NCBI GenBank assembly: GCA_022781505.1
Contig: JALETK010000046.1
Coordinates: 1-33,124, forward strand
Reading direction: 5' to 3'
Source of the DNA: Clostridiales bacterium
GTDB taxonomy: Bacteria > Bacillota > Clostridia > Oscillospirales > Oscillospiraceae
Length of the DNA: 33,124 nucleotides
Within the stretch, counting starts at the first letter, position 1, and every line of letters starts with the position of its first letter. The notes beneath the pieces were generated by a model, which saw only the letters and a list, made by a program, of their open reading frames with translations, was not told the DNA's origin and made no database searches. Positions 1,212-17,747 of this stretch are shown one piece after another. A program made the translations under genes and the position numbers.

Positions 1212-3068
1212 TTAATAGTTCTCATAGAGCTCAGAGGTATTTGCTTCCTCCGTCGGTGAGCCCACCTTCAGATTGGAGCCGTAGGGGAAGGCGACGCAGT
1301 CATCTTTGCTCAGGCCGCTTACAATCATGGTGTAAGAGCCGTAGAGGGAGGGCCCCGTCTCCACCATCCGCTTCTCCAGAAGGCCATCGTCGCCTCTGAC
1401 ATAGACGTAGGAGACGCCGTTTTCCGAGCGGATAAAGGCATTCTCCAGATAGAAGTCCTCTGTCCCCTCATTGGAGGCAGAATAGGTGATCTGGGCATAG
1501 GAGCCGGTCTGGAGATCGGCGCTCTCATCCACGCTTACCGTGAAGGGATAGTAGGACACATTGGGATTGCCGCCCATGTAGCCGTACCGCTCCGTGGGAT
1601 AGTCCCCAATGGCGGTGATGGTCCCCTCATAGGTGGCTCCCATACTCCAGTCAAGAACCTCCACGCTCTGGCCCAGGGTCAGGGTGTCCAGATTCAACTC
1701 ACTGACCGTACCCTGAATCAGGAAGCCGCCGCCGCCGGAGACCTTGATCATCGGCTCGTTGTTGGCCAGGGCCTCCTCGGGAGAGAGTACGGAAACCACA
1801 TAGCCGTCAATGTCGCTGACGACCACGCCGTTGTCAAACTCCTTCTGCATGATGCTGTACTCCGCCTCTGCCATCTTAATGGAGAACTGCAGCTCCTTGA
1901 TCTCCGCCTCCTTGTCGGCCCGCATCTGAGCAATTTCACTGGAGGTGTAGCCGCTGTTCATATTGATGCCGCCGGAGGAGCCGGAAGAGGAGCCAGAGGA
2001 GCCGCCGGAGGTCGATCCGTCATCCTTGGGCGTCTCATCCGCCTGGAAGAACACAATGGAATACCGGGGAACCTCCACATAGACTTCCCCGGGATCGGGC
2101 TCCGTGGGAGAGGTGGGATCTGTGGGCTCCGTGTCCTGGGTCGGGTCTGTATTCTCCGTGGGGTCCGTATCCTCTGTGGAAGAGGTGTCCTCCGTGGCCT
2201 CGGTCTCCTGAGGCGGAACGGTTGACTCCGGAGATGTGGTGTCCTGGATATTCCCGGAGGGGTCCGTCTGAACATCCGTCAGGAAATGAACCCCATAGTC
2301 CCCGGAGCTGGCGGAGGCCTGGAGCGCGTGCGCTCCCACAGCGGGAACCCGAGAGATCTCCACCGTGATCTCCATGCCAATCCGGCTGATCACGTCTCCC
2401 GCAGCCTTGTCCTTCTCCCGAACCTCCACAATCACATAGGTCGCGGTGTCATTTCCCAGAAGCGCCGCGAGAATGTCGTTGTTGAATGTGGTTTTCTGCT
2501 TTGCCCAGACAATTCTGGGGCTCCCGGCGGTGCCCTGCCCGCCGAGAATCAGGTACTCCTCCCCGGCGTTAAACTCCCGGGTGGGCTGGTTCTCCGATGG
2601 GGCAGTTGTGGATGTGGCTTTTGTGGTGGTCTTTGTGGTGGAGGGCGTGGTGGTGTAGGAGATGGGCTTCATCTTCTTGATTTCCGCCAGCTGCTCCTGA
2701 GCGTCCTCCAGGCGGAGCTTGCTCCGCTGAATTTCCAGCTTTGCCCGGTCCAGAGACAGCTGGGAGAGAGTGGTGTCATAGGCCATGAGCTTGCTTCCCT
2801 TGGAAACCCGCTGCCCCTCCTGCACATACACATCCGTCACCTCCTGGGTGGCGGAGACATAGACCGTCTGGAGCTTGTCCGTGGTGATCATTCCGTCGGT
2901 GGTGGTGGAGTTGTCCCCGTTCTGTGTCCAGAGCCAGTTGTCCGTAATATTGTACACATGAACCGGTTCTTTTTTCCGGTTGGCAGCGTATAGGCCGATT
3001 CCCGCACCGATGGCGCACACCAGCACCACGCTGACAATGGGAATCCATATTTTCTTACGCTTCTTCAT
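1212..3068 (-). CDS. HlyD/MacA-like membrane-fusion protein, second adaptor
   Basis: Periplasmic-adaptor-type (membrane fusion) protein, 618 residues, expected to be anchored outside the membrane and to couple the ABC ATPase/permease to substrate. Residues 7-28 form one membrane anchor. Lipoyl/barrel-sandwich halves lie at about 66-95 and 418-450 ('DIDGYVVSVLSPEEAL'). Two coiled-coil helices (about 99-136 and 376-413) are separated by an unusually long insert containing a Thr-rich patch (about 140-165), a globular stretch, an acidic Thr/Pro repeat (about 285-327) and a Ser/Gly linker (about 350-365). Beta-barrel and membrane-proximal domains follow to the end. I chose the ATG at 3068 because it gives the signal-anchor start; it overlaps the end of the ATPase gene by 14 bases. 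Longer in-frame starts would run through the ATPase gene. At 618 residues it is much longer than ordinary MacA/YknX proteins, because of the insert. Confidence 0.88.
   Translation of the reverse strand: MKKRKKIWIPIVSVVLVCAIGAGIGLYAANRKKEPVHVYNITDNWLWTQNGDNSTTTDGMITTDKLQTVYVSATQEVTDVYVQEGQRVSKGSKLMAYDTTLSQLSLDRAKLEIQRSKLRLEDAQEQLAEIKKMKPISYTTTPSTTKTTTKATSTTAPSENQPTREFNAGEEYLILGGQGTAGSPRIVWAKQKTTFNNDILAALLGNDTATYVIVEVREKDKAAGDVISRIGMEITVEISRVPAVGAHALQASASSGDYGVHFLTDVQTDPSGNIQDTTSPESTVPPQETEATEDTSSTEDTDPTENTDPTQDTEPTDPTSPTEPDPGEVYVEVPRYSIVFFQADETPKDDGSTSGGSSGSSSGSSGGINMNSGYTSSEIAQMRADKEAEIKELQFSIKMAEAEYSIMQKEFDNGVVVSDIDGYVVSVLSPEEALANNEPMIKVSGGGGFLIQGTVSELNLDTLTLGQSVEVLDWSMGATYEGTITAIGDYPTERYGYMGGNPNVSYYPFTVSVDESADLQTGSYAQITYSASNEGTEDFYLENAFIRSENGVSYVYVRGDDGLLEKRMVETGPSLYGSYTMIVSGLSKDDCVAFPYGSNLKVGSPTEEANTSELYENY
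2086..2215 (-). repeat. low-complexity acidic Thr/Pro coding repeat
   Basis: Inside the second adaptor gene the minus strand codes for repeated T-E-D/N-T-D-P-T units (about residues 285-327). The plus strand shows the matching 'tccgtggggtccgt'-like periodicity. A Ser/Gly run follows at 1975-2020. Such stretches usually form flexible, extended linkers on the cell surface and are prone to slippage in length. Confidence 0.6.
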
Positions 3069-3846
3069 CGGTATTTCCCTCCTCCCGGTCGGTAGCCAGC
3101 AGGCGGTCCAACCGCGCCATAAAATCCTCCTCCCCGGCCCCGGAGCCGGAGTGCGCAGTCGGCGCAGGGGCGGTGGAGGCGCTGTCCAGAAGCTGGCCGT
3201 CCAGAATGTGATAGGTCGTGTTCGCACAGGCCGCAATGGAGGGCTCGTGGGTAATCATTAAAATGGTCATTCCCCGGTCCGCAAGGCCCCGGAAGATATC
3301 CATAATCTGATAGCCCGAGGCAGTATCCAGAGCGCCTGTGGGTTCGTCAGCCAGGAGGATCTCCGGCTTTCCGACCATGGCCCGGGCAATGGCCACCCGC
3401 TGGCACTGGCCGCCGGAGAGCTGATTGGGATAGAAATTTAACCGCTCCTCCAGACCGACCGCCTCCAGCGCCTCCTTTGCCCTGGCCCGGCGCTCCTTCA
3501 GAGAGACGCCGGCGTACAGCAGCGGCAGCGCCACATTGTCCAGCGCCGTCATCTTCGGCAGCAGATAAAAATTCTGGAACACAAAGCCGATGTGCTTGTT
3601 CCGAACCTCCGCCAGCTGGTTGTCGGACATGGCGCCCACGTCCTCGCCCTTGAGATAATAGGCCCCGGAGGTGGGCAGATCCAGGCAGCCAATCAGATTC
3701 ATGAGGGTGGTTTTGCCGGAGCCGGAGGGACCCATGATGGCGATATAGTCCCCCTCGTTCACCTGCAGGTTCACGTTCTTCAGAACCGGTACCGGCTCCT
3801 TTCCACGAAAATAGTCCTTACAGACGTCACGCAATTCCAAAATCAT
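3055..3846 (-). CDS. MacB/LolD-type ABC transporter ATP-binding protein
   Basis: Cytoplasmic ATPase of the efflux complex, 263 residues. Walker [10 protein letters not shown] (39-47), Q-loop Q91, signature LSGGQ (143-147), Walker [10 protein letters not shown] (163-171) and H-loop H200 are all intact. The fold matches the MacB/LolD/YknY family that works with FtsX-type permeases. The start ATG at 3846 follows a GGGAGG site and lies four bases after the preceding adaptor's stop, so translation is probably coupled. The longer open frame upstream is only the adaptor gene read in another frame. After the canonical domain there is an Ala/Pro/Ser-rich tail of about 45 residues (roughly 214-263), unusual for this family. 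Its gene overlaps the start of the next adaptor. Confidence 0.95.
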
Positions 3847-8658: not shown

Positions 8659-8687
8659 GTCCTAATATTGAAGTTGGGGGGAGCGTG

Positions 8688-9083
8688 ATGAAGCAGCAGC
8701 GGAATTCCAGGCAGCGTCAGATGGTTTTGGATGCGGTCAGTACCAGGTGCGACCATCCCACTGCGGATCAGATTTATCTGGACGTGCGCTCCAAAGACGA
8801 CAAAATCAGCCGGGGCACGGTGTACCGCAACCTGGGTGTGCTGTCCGAGGACGGGGAGATCACCAATGTGAAGGTTCCCGCCGCTGACCGGTATGACTCC
8901 AGGCTGGAGCGCCACTATCACATGTTCTGCACCGGCTGTGGCGGCGTTTTTGATGCGCCCCTCCCCTATCATGAAGCGTATGATCTCCAGATTGCCAGGC
9001 AGACCGGTTTTCAAGTCACCAGGCACAGAATGATTTTTGAAGGTCTGTGCCCGGCGTGTCTGGCCCGGCAGAAAGAAAAATAA
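8688..9083 (+). CDS. perR: PerR-type Fur-family repressor
   Basis: Metal-dependent repressor of the Fur family, 131 residues. The winged helix contains '[11 protein letters not shown]' and '[13 protein letters not shown]'. By alignment with Bacillus subtilis PerR, all five regulatory-metal ligands are present: H23, D70, H76, H78 and D89. The two structural-zinc CxxC pairs are C81/C84 and C121/C124. The Asp at 89, where Fur proteins carry Glu, favours a peroxide sensor (PerR) over an iron sensor. It starts at ATG 8688 (a GTG lies directly before it) after a run of G's that serves as ribosome site. The next genes encode rubredoxin and rubrerythrin domains, classical PerR targets, and only 70 bases separate them, so they probably share a transcript. 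Confidence 0.88.
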
Positions 9084-9153: not shown

Positions 9154-11253
9154 ATGGCAATTTACAAATGCAAAATCTGCGGCTTCGTCTATGACGAGGA
9201 GAAGGAAGGCGTACCTGTCTCTCAGCTCACCTGCTGCCCGGTTTGCAAGGTGCCGGCTTCCAACCTGGCGCCTGTGGCAGAGCCGGAGGCCCCGGTGAAG
9301 ACTGACCCCGGCACGCTGGACTATGACCCGGCCACCGCGCGGCACGACCCCTCCAGCCGCTACATGGCGGAGATCCATGAAATGGCGGTGTCGGGGAAGA
9401 CCATCGGCGGCTCCATGGGCACCAAAATGCCCATGCCCAGCTGGGATGACATCCTGCTCCTGGGCGCTCAGCTCAATCCCCCTCCCCTGGACGACCATGC
9501 CCCGGTCAGCTCCGTCACCGTAATCGGCAAGCACGCCAAAAAGCCCATGGTTCTGGAGAGCCCCATCTATATCTCCCACATGTCCTTCGGCGCCCTGTCC
9601 AAAGAGGTGAAGGTGGTCCTTGCAAAGGGCTCCGCCATGGCAAAAACCGCCATGTGCAGCGGCGAGGGCGGCATTCTGCCGGAGGAGAAGCAGGCGGCTT
9701 ACAAGTACATATTTGAGTATATTCCCAACAAGTACAGCGTCACCGACGAGAATCTCCGCTCCTCGGACGCCATCGAAATCAAAATCGGACAGGGCACCAA
9801 GCCCGGCATGGGCGGTCACCTGCCCGGGGAAAAGGTCACCCCGGAAATCGCCGCCATCCGCGGAAAGAAGCCCGGGGAGGACGTTCAGAGTCCCAGCAAG
9901 TTCCCGGAGCTGAACTCCAAGGAAGACCTGCGGGATATGGTGGATATGCTCCGGGAGCGGTCTGAGGGCCGGCCCATCGGCATTAAGATCGCCGCGGGCA
10001 ACATCGAGCGGGACCTGGCCTACTGCGTCTTCGCCCGCCCGGACTTCATCACCATTGACGGCAGAGGCGGCGCCACCGGCTCCAGCCCCCTGCTCCTCCG
10101 GGAGGCCACCACGGTTCCCACGGTCTATGCCCTGAGCCGGGCCAGAAAGTATCTGGACTCCGTGGGCTCCGACATCTCCCTGGTGATCACCGGCGGCCTC
10201 CGGGTCTCGGCGGACTTTGCCAAGGCCCTGGCCATGGGCGCCGACGCCGTGGCCATTGCCAGCGCCGGTCTCATCGCCGCCGCCTGCCAGCAATACCGCA
10301 TCTGCGGCAGCGGACGCTGCCCCGTGGGTGTGGCAACTCAGGACCCGGAGCTTCGGAAGCGGCTGAATGTGGAGGCCTCTGCCCAGCGGGTGGCGAATTT
10401 CCTGAATGTCTCCACCCAGGAGCTGAAAACCTTCGCCCGGGTCACCGGGAACACCTCCGTCCACGACCTGTCCATGGAGAACCTCATAACCACCGACAAA
10501 GAGATTGCCGAATACACGGGCATCCGTCACGCCGGTGAAGCCAACCCCGGGGAAAGTCCCCTTTCCAATATTCAAAATTTTAAGGAGGAAAACAAAATGA
10601 TTCAGTACAAGTGCAAATTATGCGGTGCGACCTTCCAGGTCAAGGAAGGCGAGGCTCCCGTCTGTCCCCGCTGCGGCGCAACCGGCGACGCTCTGGAGGT
10701 CATCCAGCCTGCTCCCAAGAACAAGTATGCCGGCACCCAGACCGAGAAGAATCTGGAGGCTGCCTTCTCCGGCGAGTCCGGCGCCCGGAACAAGTACACC
10801 TACTTCGCCTCCGTGGCAAAGAAGCAGGGCTTTGAGCAGATCGCGGCTCTGTTCCTGAAGACCGCCGACAACGAGAAAGAGCATGCCAAGATGTGGTTCA
10901 AGGAGCTGAACGGCATCGGCGACACCGCCGCCAACCTGGCCGCCGCCGCCGAGGGTGAGAACTACGAGTGGACCGATATGTACGATGGCTTCGCCAAGAC
11001 CGCCGAGGCTGAGGGCTTCCCGGAGCTGGCCGCCAAGTTCCGCATGGTGGGCGAGATCGAGCGCCACCACGAGGAGCGCTACCGCGCCCTGCTGAAGAAC
11101 GTGGAGACCGCTCAGGTCTTTGCCAAGAGCGAGGTCAAGGTCTGGGAGTGCCGCAACTGCGGCCACATCGTAGTGGGCACCAAGGCCCCCGAGGTCTGCC
11201 CCGTCTGCGCCCATCCCCAGAGCTACTTTGAGATCAACGCCAAGAACTATTGA
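9154..11253 (+). CDS. rubredoxin-glutamate synthase domain protein, in frame with rubrerythrin
   Basis: One open frame of 699 residues. Residues 1-40: rubredoxin-like knot (C6xxC9, C28xxC31). Residues about 85-460: the FMN-binding synthase core of glutamate synthase (Glu_synthase), with '[14 protein letters not shown]', '[16 protein letters not shown]' and the [3Fe-4S] ligands C378-x5-C384-x4-C389. There is no glutaminase domain and no GltD partner nearby, so real glutamate synthesis is doubtful. From residue 482 the frame continues into a complete rubrerythrin. A strong internal ribosome site and ATG at the joint mean a separate rubrerythrin is almost certainly made too. Without the fusion, the first protein would be about 481 residues. 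The start ATG at 9154 follows GGAGGT at good spacing. The fused product may be real or may reflect a one-base deletion or sequencing error. Confidence 0.85.
10581..10599 (+). promoter_or_regulatory. internal ribosome site and start codon for rubrerythrin
   Basis: TAAGGAGG (10581-10588), eight bases, ATG (10597). The TAA overlapping this site is one base out of frame with the upstream gene. Elsewhere in this window stops overlap ribosome sites in just this way (at 1212 and 22026), so the TAA probably was the upstream stop. Confidence 0.8.
10597..11253 (+). CDS. rubrerythrin with rubredoxin modules at both ends
   Basis: Product of the internal start, 218 residues; peroxide reductase of anaerobes that passes electrons from rubredoxin iron to a di-iron site. 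N-terminal rubredoxin-like module: C6xxC9 and C23xxC26. Ferritin-like di-iron domain about residues 48-170: E60 ('[13 protein letters not shown]'), E93/H96 ('ADNEKEHAK'), E137/E139 ('TAEAEG') and the '[14 protein letters not shown]' helix (E153-H158). C-terminal rubredoxin module: C185xxC188 and C201xxC204. Classical rubrerythrin has the rubredoxin at the C-terminus and the reverse type at the N-terminus; this one has both. Codon use is highly biased to C/G-ending codons, suggesting strong expression. It is followed by a strong terminator. Confidence 0.93.
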
Positions 11254-12128: not shown

Positions 12129-13253
12129 TTATTTTGTGACCCAGGTTCCGGTGGCCATACAGGTCAGGTAAGCGTTGATGAAGGGGTCCAGGGCGCCGTC
12201 CATAACCGCGTTCACATTGGAGGTCTCGCAGCCGGTTCTGGTGTCCTTCACCAGGGTGTAGGGCATGAACACATAGTTGCGGATCTGGCTGCCCCACTCG
12301 ATTTTCTGCTGGACGCCCTTGATATCGGAAATCTTCTCCAAGTGCTCCCGCTCCTTGATTTCCACCAGCTTGGAACGGAGCATTCGCATACAGGTCTCCC
12401 GGTTCTGGAACTGGCTCCGCTCCGTCTGGCAGGCCACCACGATTCCCGTGGGCTTGTGAATCAGCCGGACAGCGGAGGAGGTCTTGTTGATGTGCTGGCC
12501 GCCTGCTCCGGAGGAGCGGTAGACCTGCATCTCAATGTCCTCGGGGCGAATCTCCACGTCGTTGGAGGTGTCCGTAATCTCGGGAATCACCTCCACGGCG
12601 GCAAAGGAGGTCTGGCGGCGGGCGTTGGCGTCAAAGGGAGAGACCCGCACCAGGCGGTGGACGCCGTTCTCCCCCTTCAAAAAGCCATAGGCATTGGGGC
12701 CCTCGATGGCGATGTCCGCGGACTTGAGGCCTGCCTCGTCGCCCTCCTGGTAGTCCATAATCTTATAGGTGAAGCCGTGGGCCTCGGCCCAGCGGGTGTA
12801 CATCCGGTAGAGCATCTGGCACCAGTCCTGGGCCTCGGTGCCGCCGGCGCCGGCGTGGAAGGACATGAGGGCATTGTTGCCGTCATACTCCCCGGTGAGG
12901 AGGGTCTCCAGCCGGGCCTCCTCCATCCGCTGGGACAGCTGCTCAAAGCCCTCCTGGAGCTCAGGCAGCATGGAGTCATCGTTCTCCTCCAGCGCCATCT
13001 CGCAGATGGTGGTGAGGTCCTCCCACTGGGAGATCATTTTCCGGTACTTGTCCAGCTTGGCCTCCACCAGCTTGGTCTCCACCACAATCTTCTGGGACTT
13101 CTCCGGGTCGTCCCAGAAGCCGGGCGCCTCCTGCATGGCGTGGAACCGCTCCAGGTCGTTTCTGGCCTTGTCCAGGTTCAGAGAAACCGCCAGGTCCTTC
13201 AGCTTGGGCTCCAGGTCGCTGAGCTTCAATTTATATTCTTCAAATTCAATCAT
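12129..13253 (-). CDS. prfB: peptide chain release factor 2
   Basis: Class I release factor reading UGA and UAA, 374 residues. SPF at 205-207 is the RF2 stop-codon recognition tripeptide. GGQ at 251-253 ('SSGAGGQHINKTSSAVR') drives peptidyl-tRNA hydrolysis. The usual RF2 gene carries an in-frame UGA near codon 25 that needs a +1 frameshift; here the corresponding region (codons for LAVSLNLDKA, 21-30) is read straight through with no UGA, so this copy lacks the autoregulatory frameshift. Two ATGs lie two codons apart; the second (13253) has the better spaced, though weak, GAGAG site. Confidence 0.95.
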   Translation of the reverse strand: MIEFEEYKLKLSDLEPKLKDLAVSLNLDKARNDLERFHAMQEAPGFWDDPEKSQKIVVETKLVEAKLDKYRKMISQWEDLTTICEMALEENDDSMLPELQEGFEQLSQRMEEARLETLLTGEYDGNNALMSFHAGAGGTEAQDWCQMLYRMYTRWAEAHGFTYKIMDYQEGDEAGLKSADIAIEGPNAYGFLKGENGVHRLVRVSPFDANARRQTSFAAVEVIPEITDTSNDVEIRPEDIEMQVYRSSGAGGQHINKTSSAVRLIHKPTGIVVACQTERSQFQNRETCMRMLRSKLVEIKEREHLEKISDIKGVQQKIEWGSQIRNYVFMPYTLVKDTRTGCETSNVNAVMDGALDPFINAYLTCMATGTWVTK

Positions 13254-13288
13254 AACCATCTCTCACAATCTGTCAGCATTCCTTGCAT

Positions 13289-15494: not shown

Positions 15495-17747
15495 TTACTC
15501 CAGGGGCAATGAAATCTGCTTCTCCTCCAAATCCTCCGGCCGCAGAACCGCTCCTGCGGCGGGAAGGTTCCTCCCCTTATAGCGGCTCTGGTTGGTAATG
15601 CCGCACTCCTCCAGGGGGCAGGCTCTGTCCAGCGCGGCCTTCTTCCGAAGGGTCAGCACCGCCACGCCCATGGTGGAGCGGGTGGTCTTGGGGGCCAGCT
15701 GGGCCGTGGAGAAGATCATAGCTCTGCTGTCGGTGGAGTATACCGCCACCAGACCGTCCTCTCCCATGGAGAGGATGGTCTTAACCGGGCTCTTGTCCGA
15801 ATAGGCTCCCGTGAGCTTCCGGCGGTTGGACTTGGTGTCGTAGGCGCTGAGGGGAACCTTGGCCGCCTTGCCGTTTTCAAAGAAGAACAGGACAAAACCG
15901 GTGTAATCCCCCGGCAAAATCACCTGCACCAGATTCTCTCCCGGGTCAAAGCCCAGCTTGGTGGGCAGATAGTCTCCCAGCTGGGAGGCCTTGCCGTCGT
16001 CAAAGTCCGAAAGCCGGGCCTTGTAGCATTGGTACCGGTCAGTGAAGGCCAGGAGCTCCGCCCGGTTGGTGGTCTCCCGGGAGAAGGCCAAGGCGTCTCC
16101 CTCCTTGAACTTCTGCTCTCCGGAGGAGCGGAGGGACTGGGGGGTGATCTTCTTGATATACCCCTCCCGGGATACGAACACCGTCACGGGATAGTCCGGA
16201 AGCTCCTGGCTCTCCTCCTGCCCGGCGGACATGTCCCAGTTGTACACCAGCTCCGTTCTCCGGGGCTGGCCATATTTTTTGGAGACCTGCTCCAGCTCTC
16301 CCATGATGATTTTCCGGATGCGCCGCTCGCTGTTCAGGGTATCCTCCAGGTCCTGAATCTCTTTTTCCAGGGCGCCGGTCTCCGCCGTGCGCTTCAGGAT
16401 ATACTCCCGGTTGATGTTCCGCAGCTTGATCTCCGCCACGAACTCCGCCTGAACCTGGTCGATGCCGAAGCCGATCATCAGGTTGGGCACCACGTCCGCC
16501 TCCAGCTCCGTCTGGCGGATGATGGCAATGGCCTTGTCAATGTCCAGGAGAATCTTCTCCAGGCCCTTCAGGAGGTGCAGCTTGTCCCGCTTCTTTCCCA
16601 GCTGGAAGAAGACCCGGCGCTTCACGCACTGGCTCCGCCAGGCGGTCCACTCCTCCAGGATCTCCCCCACTCCCATGACCTGGGGCATACCGGCAATGAG
16701 AATGTTAAAGTTGCAGGGATAGGAGTCCATGAGGGGGGTCATGCGGAAGAGCTTCTGCATCAGCTTCTCCGGCTCCACCCCCCGCTTCAGGTCAATGGTG
16801 AGCTTCAGGCCGGAAAGGTCCGTCTCGTCCCGCATGTCGGAGATCTCCTTGATTTTTCCGCCCCGGATCAGCTCCGCCACCTTGTCCATAATGGCCTCGG
16901 CGGTGGTTGTGTAGGGAATCTCATAGATTTCAATGAGGTTCCCCTCCTTCTGATACCGCCATCTGGCCCGAATCTTAAAGCTGCCCCGGCCGGTTTTGTA
17001 GATGGCGCGCATCTCCAGGGGGTCATAGAGCAGCTCTCCCCCGGTGGGAAAATCCGGGGCCGGCATGGTCTCCAGAAGGTCATGGTCCGGATTCTTCATC
17101 CGGGCAATGGCAGTGTCGCAGACCTCCTTCAGATTGAAGCCGCAGATGTTGCTGGCCATGCCCACGGCGATGCCCGTGTTGGAGGAGACCAGCACATTGG
17201 GAAAGGTGGTGGGAAGGAGGGTGGGCTCTTTCATGGTGGCGTCATAATTGTCCACCATGTCCACCGTGTCGAAGTCAATGTCCCGGAACAGCTCCCCGCA
17301 GATTGGGTCCAGCTTGGCCTCGGTGTACCGGGCCGCCGCGTAGGCCATGTCCCGGGAGTAGACCTTGCCGAAGTTGCCCTTGGAGTCCACAAAGGGGTGG
17401 AGCAGAGTCTCGTTGCCTCTGGACAGACGCACCATAGTCTCGTAGATGGCGGCGTCACCGTGGGGATTCAGGCGCATGGTCTGGCCCACAATATTAGCGG
17501 ATTTGGTTCTTGAACCGGTCAAAAGTCCCATTTTGTACATGGTGTACAGGAGCTTCCGGTGAGAGGGCTTGAAGCCATCAATCTCCGGGATGGCCCGGGA
17601 GACAATGGCGGACATGGCATAGGGCATGAAGTTGATCTCCAGAGTCTCGGAGATGGCCTGCTCCGTGGTGGAGCCCACCAGTCCTACCACGCCGTCGGTG
17701 TTGACTTTCTTTTTCTTCTGTTCCGGTTCCGTTTTCTTTCGTGCCAT
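15495..17747 (-). CDS. parC: type IIA topoisomerase subunit A (ParC/GyrA-like)
   Basis: DNA-breaking subunit of a type II topoisomerase, 750 residues. Breakage-reunion domain about 30-480: active-site R140-Y141, the quinolone-determining stretch 'NPHGDAAIYETMVRLS' (94-109), and the 'TGIAVGMASNI' motif. A coiled-coil tower follows, then a beta-pinwheel-like C-terminal part from about 510 with repeated F/Y-rich strands. No GyrA box (QRRGGKG) is seen, so topoisomerase IV rather than gyrase is the better call. Ala99 replaces the quinolone-contacting Ser. The start ATG has GGAG six bases upstream. It lies 21 bases downstream of the ParE-type gene. Confidence 0.9.
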   Translation of the reverse strand: MARKKTEPEQKKKKVNTDGVVGLVGSTTEQAISETLEINFMPYAMSAIVSRAIPEIDGFKPSHRKLLYTMYKMGLLTGSRTKSANIVGQTMRLNPHGDAAIYETMVRLSRGNETLLHPFVDSKGNFGKVYSRDMAYAAARYTEAKLDPICGELFRDIDFDTVDMVDNYDATMKEPTLLPTTFPNVLVSSNTGIAVGMASNICGFNLKEVCDTAIARMKNPDHDLLETMPAPDFPTGGELLYDPLEMRAIYKTGRGSFKIRARWRYQKEGNLIEIYEIPYTTTAEAIMDKVAELIRGGKIKEISDMRDETDLSGLKLTIDLKRGVEPEKLMQKLFRMTPLMDSYPCNFNILIAGMPQVMGVGEILEEWTAWRSQCVKRRVFFQLGKKRDKLHLLKGLEKILLDIDKAIAIIRQTELEADVVPNLMIGFGIDQVQAEFVAEIKLRNINREYILKRTAETGALEKEIQDLEDTLNSERRIRKIIMGELEQVSKKYGQPRRTELVYNWDMSAGQEESQELPDYPVTVFVSREGYIKKITPQSLRSSGEQKFKEGDALAFSRETTNRAELLAFTDRYQCYKARLSDFDDGKASQLGDYLPTKLGFDPGENLVQVILPGDYTGFVLFFFENGKAAKVPLSAYDTKSNRRKLTGAYSDKSPVKTILSMGEDGLVAVYSTDSRAMIFSTAQLAPKTTRSTMGVAVLTLRKKAALDRACPLEECGITNQSRYKGRNLPAAGAVLRPEDLEEKQISLPLE

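Follow-up and report, generated by a model that had tools for sequence, protein, structure and literature searches.

One open reading frame of an Oscillospiraceae bacterium encodes a glutamate-synthase-like (GltS) protein and a rubrerythrin, and a Shine-Dalgarno (SD) sequence and an ATG are located at the joint between them. This raised the question of whether one gene yields rubrerythrin in both fused and free form, or whether a lost base has joined two genes. The locus was analysed in a stretch of 33,124 nt (contig JALETK010000046.1), which is called the window here.

Organization of the fused gene

The frame was uninterrupted from ATG 9154 to TGA 11251-11253 on the forward strand and encoded 699 amino acids (75.6 kDa), as the preliminary description had stated. 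The order of the parts was rubredoxin, glutamate-synthase-like flavodomain, zinc-ribbon, rubrerythrin, and rubredoxin (9154-11253). The N-terminal rubredoxin-like domain (CKIC...CPVC, 9154-9291) was slightly below the cutoff of Pfam Rubredoxin (1.4e-4). Rubredoxins of the PDB matched it near 1e-3, and its Cys pairs were located at residues 6 and 28. The glutamate-synthase FMN/FeS-type domain at 9520-10449 (Pfam Glu_synthase, 1.5e-95, residues 123-432) was present without the amidotransferase part. A full GltB (~1500 aa, with amidotransferase) was ruled out, since only the Glu_synthase domain was found and NF008730 gave 142 bits against a cutoff of 1047. An AT-rich variable linker (residues 462-481, 10537-10596) followed.

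The sequence of the joint was TTT AAG GAG GAA AAC AAA ATG. The SD core GGAGG (10584-10588) was located inside TAAGGAGG (10581-10588) at -13 to -9 from the in-frame ATG at 10597-10599, with 8 nt in between. This ATG, the predicted start of the free rubrerythrin, opened a complete ribbon-rubrerythrin coding sequence of 218 aa and 24.2 kDa in the same frame (10597-11253). A stand-alone ribbon-rubrerythrin gene with the same N-terminus was found in a relative (L003). The ferritin-like diiron domain (10747-11094; Pfam Rubrerythrin, 3.1e-24, residues 532-647) and the C-terminal rubredoxin-like domain (11143-11232; Pfam RUBY_RBDX, 1.1e-17, residues 664-693) were both above cutoff. With NCBIfam NF045767 at 244 bits (cutoff 200), the rubrerythrin part was of the classical type by domains, and it matched PDB 9fj2 at 7e-64. 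The AlphaFold prediction (window protein with 39 of the 120 listed homologues) was unusably poor, with a mean pLDDT of 56.3 and pTM of 0.45.

The SD and the start codon for a complete rubrerythrin were thus found as described before. The TAA of TAAGGAGG, at 10581-10583, was likewise confirmed to lie out of the fusion frame. It had also been remarked that other genes of the window end in such overlaps. This was checked for TAAGGAGG alone: just one further copy exists. It covers 1207-1214 on the minus strand and overlaps the stop codon of the ORF 1212-3236. The window contained two copies in total, and about one was expected by chance.

The fused frame in related genomes

The preliminary description had offered a homopolymer deletion or read error as one explanation, by which a stop was deleted and the real genes are separate. 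A and T runs are indeed located immediately 5' of the joint. The loci were obtained from a contig scan of the best 80 of 546 relatives, plus loci from further genomes. The resulting 122 GltS loci are those nearest to the window among the matches listed, selected for likeness to it. L126 and L130 were removed before counting as repeats of L036 and L074, and L119 was reassigned by hand from GltS alone to GltS with ribbon. The set consisted of 61 fused loci, 3 with adjacent separate genes, 8 with GltS and ribbon but without rubrerythrin, 47 with GltS alone, and 3 at contig ends. The comparison of the joint proposed earlier therefore gave an in-frame fusion in 61 of the 64 adjacent pairs, one of them in the Faecalicatena contorta ET51 record (L074). 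All 120 protein homologues among the matches listed (7999 scored) were single fusions of 695-705 aa. Database annotation already records the fusion; P0049, for instance, is named "glutamate synthase domain-containing protein 2/rubrerythrin". Among farther relatives GltS alone predominated, and the whole query was spanned in one piece by 8 of 76 matches.

The linkers of the fused genes had varied sequences and spanned 12-35 residues (57 scored), always in frame. Stops in the other frames were present in 52 of the 57 linkers; the fused frame had none, as membership of this class requires. An out-of-frame stop abutted the SD in 19 of the 57, the linker of the window included. Judged from these relatives, the fused frame is genuine and not a sequencing error, and the 699-residue frame is a member of a large family of rubredoxin/glutamate-synthase-like/rubrerythrin fusions. 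With differing linkers in the fused pairs and fusion in every listed homologue, the comparison has already refuted the error explanation for the family, and an error in the window itself is extremely improbable.

Conservation of the internal start

The start codon at the joint of the 61 fusions was ATG in 52, TTG in 3, and GTG in 2, and none was present in 4. An SD duplex with dG ≤ -6 kcal/mol preceded all 52 joint ATGs, compared with 100 of 1013 in-frame ATGs located elsewhere in these genes. Because all 52 have an SD, choosing loci by ATG is about the same as choosing them by SD. GGAG beginning at -13 was present at 49 of the 61 joints and at 23 of the 1013 other ATGs. The counts of 61 include near-identical joints; only the codon counts used a set of 49 distinct joints. 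L064, with a weak GTG, was among the 54 fusions with dG ≤ -6 kcal/mol and was placed by hand in the group without SD for the tree, folding, and codon counts. In proteins, Met was located at the joint in 114 of 120 homologues among the matches listed. Val or Leu replaced it in 4 of 6 GltS-type and 7 of 10 ferredoxin-type exceptions (by eye, proteins only), as GTG or TTG would give. In addition, the start region was AT-rich and predicted to be open. The joint of the window showed a GC content of 0.25 versus 0.64 for the gene and an MFE of -2.3 versus -18.2 kcal/mol. For the joints together (n = 53), the MFE was -2.9 kcal/mol, compared with -13.3 kcal/mol elsewhere in the genes. An SD and a start codon inside the ORF were therefore kept at the nucleotide level, as in a gene with an internal start.

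Codon use was examined in the 49 distinct joints. Lys at codon -5 was AAG in 37 of 38 cases versus 52 of 201 elsewhere in the same linkers (Fisher 1e-17), and Glu at codon -4 was GAG in 45 of 46 versus 27 of 95 (Fisher 1e-16), P values that overstate the certainty because related loci are not independent. Codon -5 ended in G in 47 of the 49 joints, whether it encoded Lys, Thr, Met, Glu, Gln, or Arg. This synonymous choice shows that the SD nucleotides themselves are conserved under selection. A weaker test was the synonymous null with fixed peptide and random codons, under which 12.2 of 54 equally strong sites were expected. It was often weak for single loci (P up to 0.687), and the joint of the window alone was insignificant (P 0.605 for its own peptide).

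A second strong SD with an ATG was observed between the ribbon and the diiron domain in L061, L066, L081-L084, and L101. It may be a coincidence of a coding motif.

Natural controls and phylogeny

Of 53 ribbon-bearing fusions, 47 had a joint ATG; none of the 8 proteins that carry the ribbon but no rubrerythrin had one (Fisher 1e-6). Two of these eight, L115 and L138, had a GTG with an SD-like stretch. A usable joint start or SD was missing in 7 of the 61 fusions (L045, L056, L062, L067, L068, L069, and L135). L064, with its weak GTG only, was the eighth weak fusion, and the flavin-reductase fusion L165 likewise had no usable internal start. Since these fusions lack a good site, the short form would be dispensable in some lineages, and such lineages are a natural control. 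The ribbon was absent in 8 of the 61 fusions. Five of them (L052, L133, L136, L139, and L141) kept ATG and SD directly before the diiron domain, and the remaining three belonged to the seven without a usable start.

On the careful tree, which omits L118, L124, and L155, the fused state changed at least 17 times, and 53 of the 61 fused rows bore the SD-start. The label of fused with SD changed at least 10 times on well-supported (starred) branches alone. Independent pairs of joint ATG against rubrerythrin presence numbered three on starred branches, of which 2.8 agreed on average (median p 0.25); this is not significant because three pairs are too few.

Ferredoxin and flavin-reductase fusions

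A ferredoxin-like module was fused in frame to ribbon-rubrerythrin in 11 loci (L004, L005, and L156-L164) with 8 distinct joints. All 8 had ATG and GGAG at -12, -13, or -15, and a similarly placed GGAG was found at 14 of 109 control ATGs. The codon phase of the GGAG was 0 in five and 2 in three of these joints. Met was located at the joint in 95 of 105 scored proteins of this type among 120 listed, with 15 unscored. By these joints, the predicted internal start is extended beyond the GltS fusion to fusions of the ferredoxin type. Of 120 listed flavin-reductase-ribbon-rubrerythrin proteins (P0241-P0360), 118 were scored, and 116 of these had Met downstream of the ribbon and immediately ahead of the diiron domain. 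The claim for this type rests on proteins because the DNA covers three loci, one of them with a start: L006 had SD and ATG, L165 no usable start, and L166 was unfused.

Alternative explanations

The fused frame, the internal ribosome-binding site, and the start codon were conserved among near relatives, and we infer that both products are made. It is quite probable that this is a gene with two translation starts, in which internal initiation would give a ~76 kDa fusion and a ~24 kDa free rubrerythrin from one message. The earlier suggestion of one gene for both forms thus gained support from the codon-level conservation of SD and start and from the absence of the ATG where there is no rubrerythrin. 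Three other readings were weighed against it. The SD and ATG might be unused leftovers of an operon in which a lost stop fused once-separate genes. Separate adjacent genes occur in 3 of 64 pairs, of which L097 has its own SD, and the out-of-frame stop abutting the SD in a third of the scored linkers is what a small gene-fusing shift could leave. However, linker length and sequence have diverged and the G-ending codons of the SD are fixed, the fused state changed repeatedly on the tree with the SD-start in most fused rows, and ferredoxin fusions retain the SD in a different codon phase. This origin is unlikely.

It is very improbable that the ATG is incidental and that the SD-like stretch either makes ribosomes pause while the first domain folds or reflects selection for a charged Lys-Glu linker in the protein. 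KEE or KED residues are frequent in the linkers, and the synonymous null was often weak for single loci, as such a role would allow. However, the start codon is located at an almost constant distance in 52 of 61 fusions, TTG replaces the joint ATG in L042, and Val or Leu takes the place of Met in the exceptions seen by eye in proteins. In addition, the AAG and GAG preference is confined to the SD positions, and all eight ribbon proteins without rubrerythrin lack the ATG. Translational coupling is common between adjoining genes, and it might be that only the free rubrerythrin matters, the open frame being read-through coupling and the fusion polypeptide functionless. The stand-alone rubrerythrin with the same ribbon in L003 would fit. 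Coupling does not need an in-frame fusion, yet nearly all adjacent pairs are in frame, and the seven fusions without a start are still fused, so we give this reading little probability.

Proposed function of the two products

On the preferred reading of a gene with two starts, translation initiated at 9154 would yield the 76 kDa fusion of rubredoxin/glutamate-synthase-like flavoprotein and rubrerythrin, and initiation at the internal SD and ATG (10584-10599) of that mRNA would yield the free rubrerythrin of 24 kDa. Because the ribosome-binding site and start codon are kept at the joint, many anaerobic Clostridia likely make both forms. The flavoprotein arm may be a built-in electron donor, with electrons passing from pyridine nucleotide to FMN/FeS, rubredoxin, and the diiron peroxidase. 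Fusion of the GltS-like protein to rubrerythrin would raise the local concentration. The free form might let peroxidase subunits outnumber donor arms, possibly in mixed oligomers.

One of the closest described systems is CD0828 of C. difficile, which has a rubredoxin domain and a GltS-like domain with modelled FMN and [3Fe-4S] in 480 aa (PMC11980386). Its gene is located in the rbr-perR-sor-CD0828 operon, a PerR operon of peroxide defence, and the mutant was peroxide-sensitive. CD0828 was reduced by NADH, electron transfer to Rbr was slow, and the authors judged efficient electron donation by CD0828 in vivo unlikely (PMC11980386). This weakens the electron-donor step proposed here. C. difficile Rbr is described as a tetramer (PMC11980386), so mixed oligomers of fused and free chains would be possible. 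The rubredoxin and GltS part of the window protein matched CD0828 in domain order and size, compared by published description; CD0828 differs in that its gene is separate from rbr and unfused.

Gene fusions are usually taken as a permanent joining of functions, and the annotation lists a single product. A seemingly functional start was kept across dozens of loci and in ferredoxin-like fusions. This retention suggests a need for the fused as well as the free form. We tentatively propose a broader idea, in which rubrerythrin would be a dual-output module that carries its ribosome-binding site inside any donor (rubredoxin-GltS flavoprotein, ferredoxin, or flavin reductase-rubredoxin). It might thereby give wired and unwired peroxidase and mixed oligomers with few donor arms feeding many diiron sites. 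If so, selection would maintain both the joining and the separateness of two proteins in one gene. The fusion is also a lead on which electron partner naturally serves rubrerythrin in anaerobes, a question left open by the C. difficile study.

Comparison with known systems

Like the GltS-rubrerythrin gene, the gene of cyanobacterial CcmM has a long and a short product (M58 and M35). CcmM differs in being a carboxysome scaffold of unrelated proteins, and both of its forms have been demonstrated, whereas the pair of fused and free rubrerythrin is predicted from sequence. Downstream starts in an SD context within the ORF are likewise described for infB, clpB, cheA, mrcB, and ssaQ, giving N-terminal proteoforms (PMC11005335). 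Starts of the infB type mostly truncate one protein, whereas the rubrerythrin start lies where two domains are fused and would yield a second, complete enzyme. The [FeFe] hydrogenase-rubrerythrin chimera HydR of C. perfringens is alike in combining rubrerythrin and an electron source in one chain; it differs in having a hydrogenase as donor, and the accessible part of that report mentions no second start (PMC11926857). Class F flavodiiron proteins, such as the FDP-Rb-NROR fusion of Trichomonas, are also self-sufficient donor-acceptor fusions. Their catalytic core is different, and the accessible text of the source mentions no second product (PMC9364112). A survey of rubrerythrins mentions rubredoxin fusions and, in its accessible part, no GltS-rubrerythrin fusion (PMC5114695). 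A literature search of titles and abstract openings found, among the matches listed, nothing on internal starts within rubrerythrin fusions or on the GltS-rubrerythrin fusion. The internal-start mechanism is therefore known elsewhere, as in CcmM, and its setting in a rubrerythrin fusion appears to be new.

Gene neighbourhood and inheritance

A gene for a Fur-family, PerR-like regulator (8685-9083, forward strand; Pfam FUR, 4.1e-22) is located directly upstream and ends 70 nt before the fusion start. Its best NCBIfam match was PerR (1.4e-25), with 90 bits under the equivalog cutoff of 200. Among loci with more than 450 nt upstream, a PerR-like gene was present upstream on the same strand within 1.5 kb in 29 of 51 fusions with SD, the window among them, versus 0 of 45 GltS-alone loci. 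It was also present in 4 of 8 fusions without SD, 1 of 7 GltS with ribbon, and 1 of 3 separate pairs. This regulator may turn the unit on under peroxide. TTATAATNATTATAA, the Per box consensus of B. subtilis, had no match in the window at up to 3 mismatches.

A close homologue of the GltS part was found in 8 of 400 genomes of the family, including that of the window, and in none of the 36 congeners searched, where the best match was near 38% identity. The fused gene was likely inherited patchily or transferred, as far as this distribution indicates. A misbinned contig was considered and rejected: the contig fits the genome because the gene at 15498-17747 follows the genus, with 72-78% identity in the congeners that have the orthologue. 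The genome of the window also contains a second, unfused rubrerythrin (G000:C5:18782-19312) that is 55% identical. The prfB of E. coli carries a frameshift. The gene at 12129-13259 on the minus strand of the window, presumably a prfB-like release factor 2 by its translation, is one unbroken frame without a frameshift.
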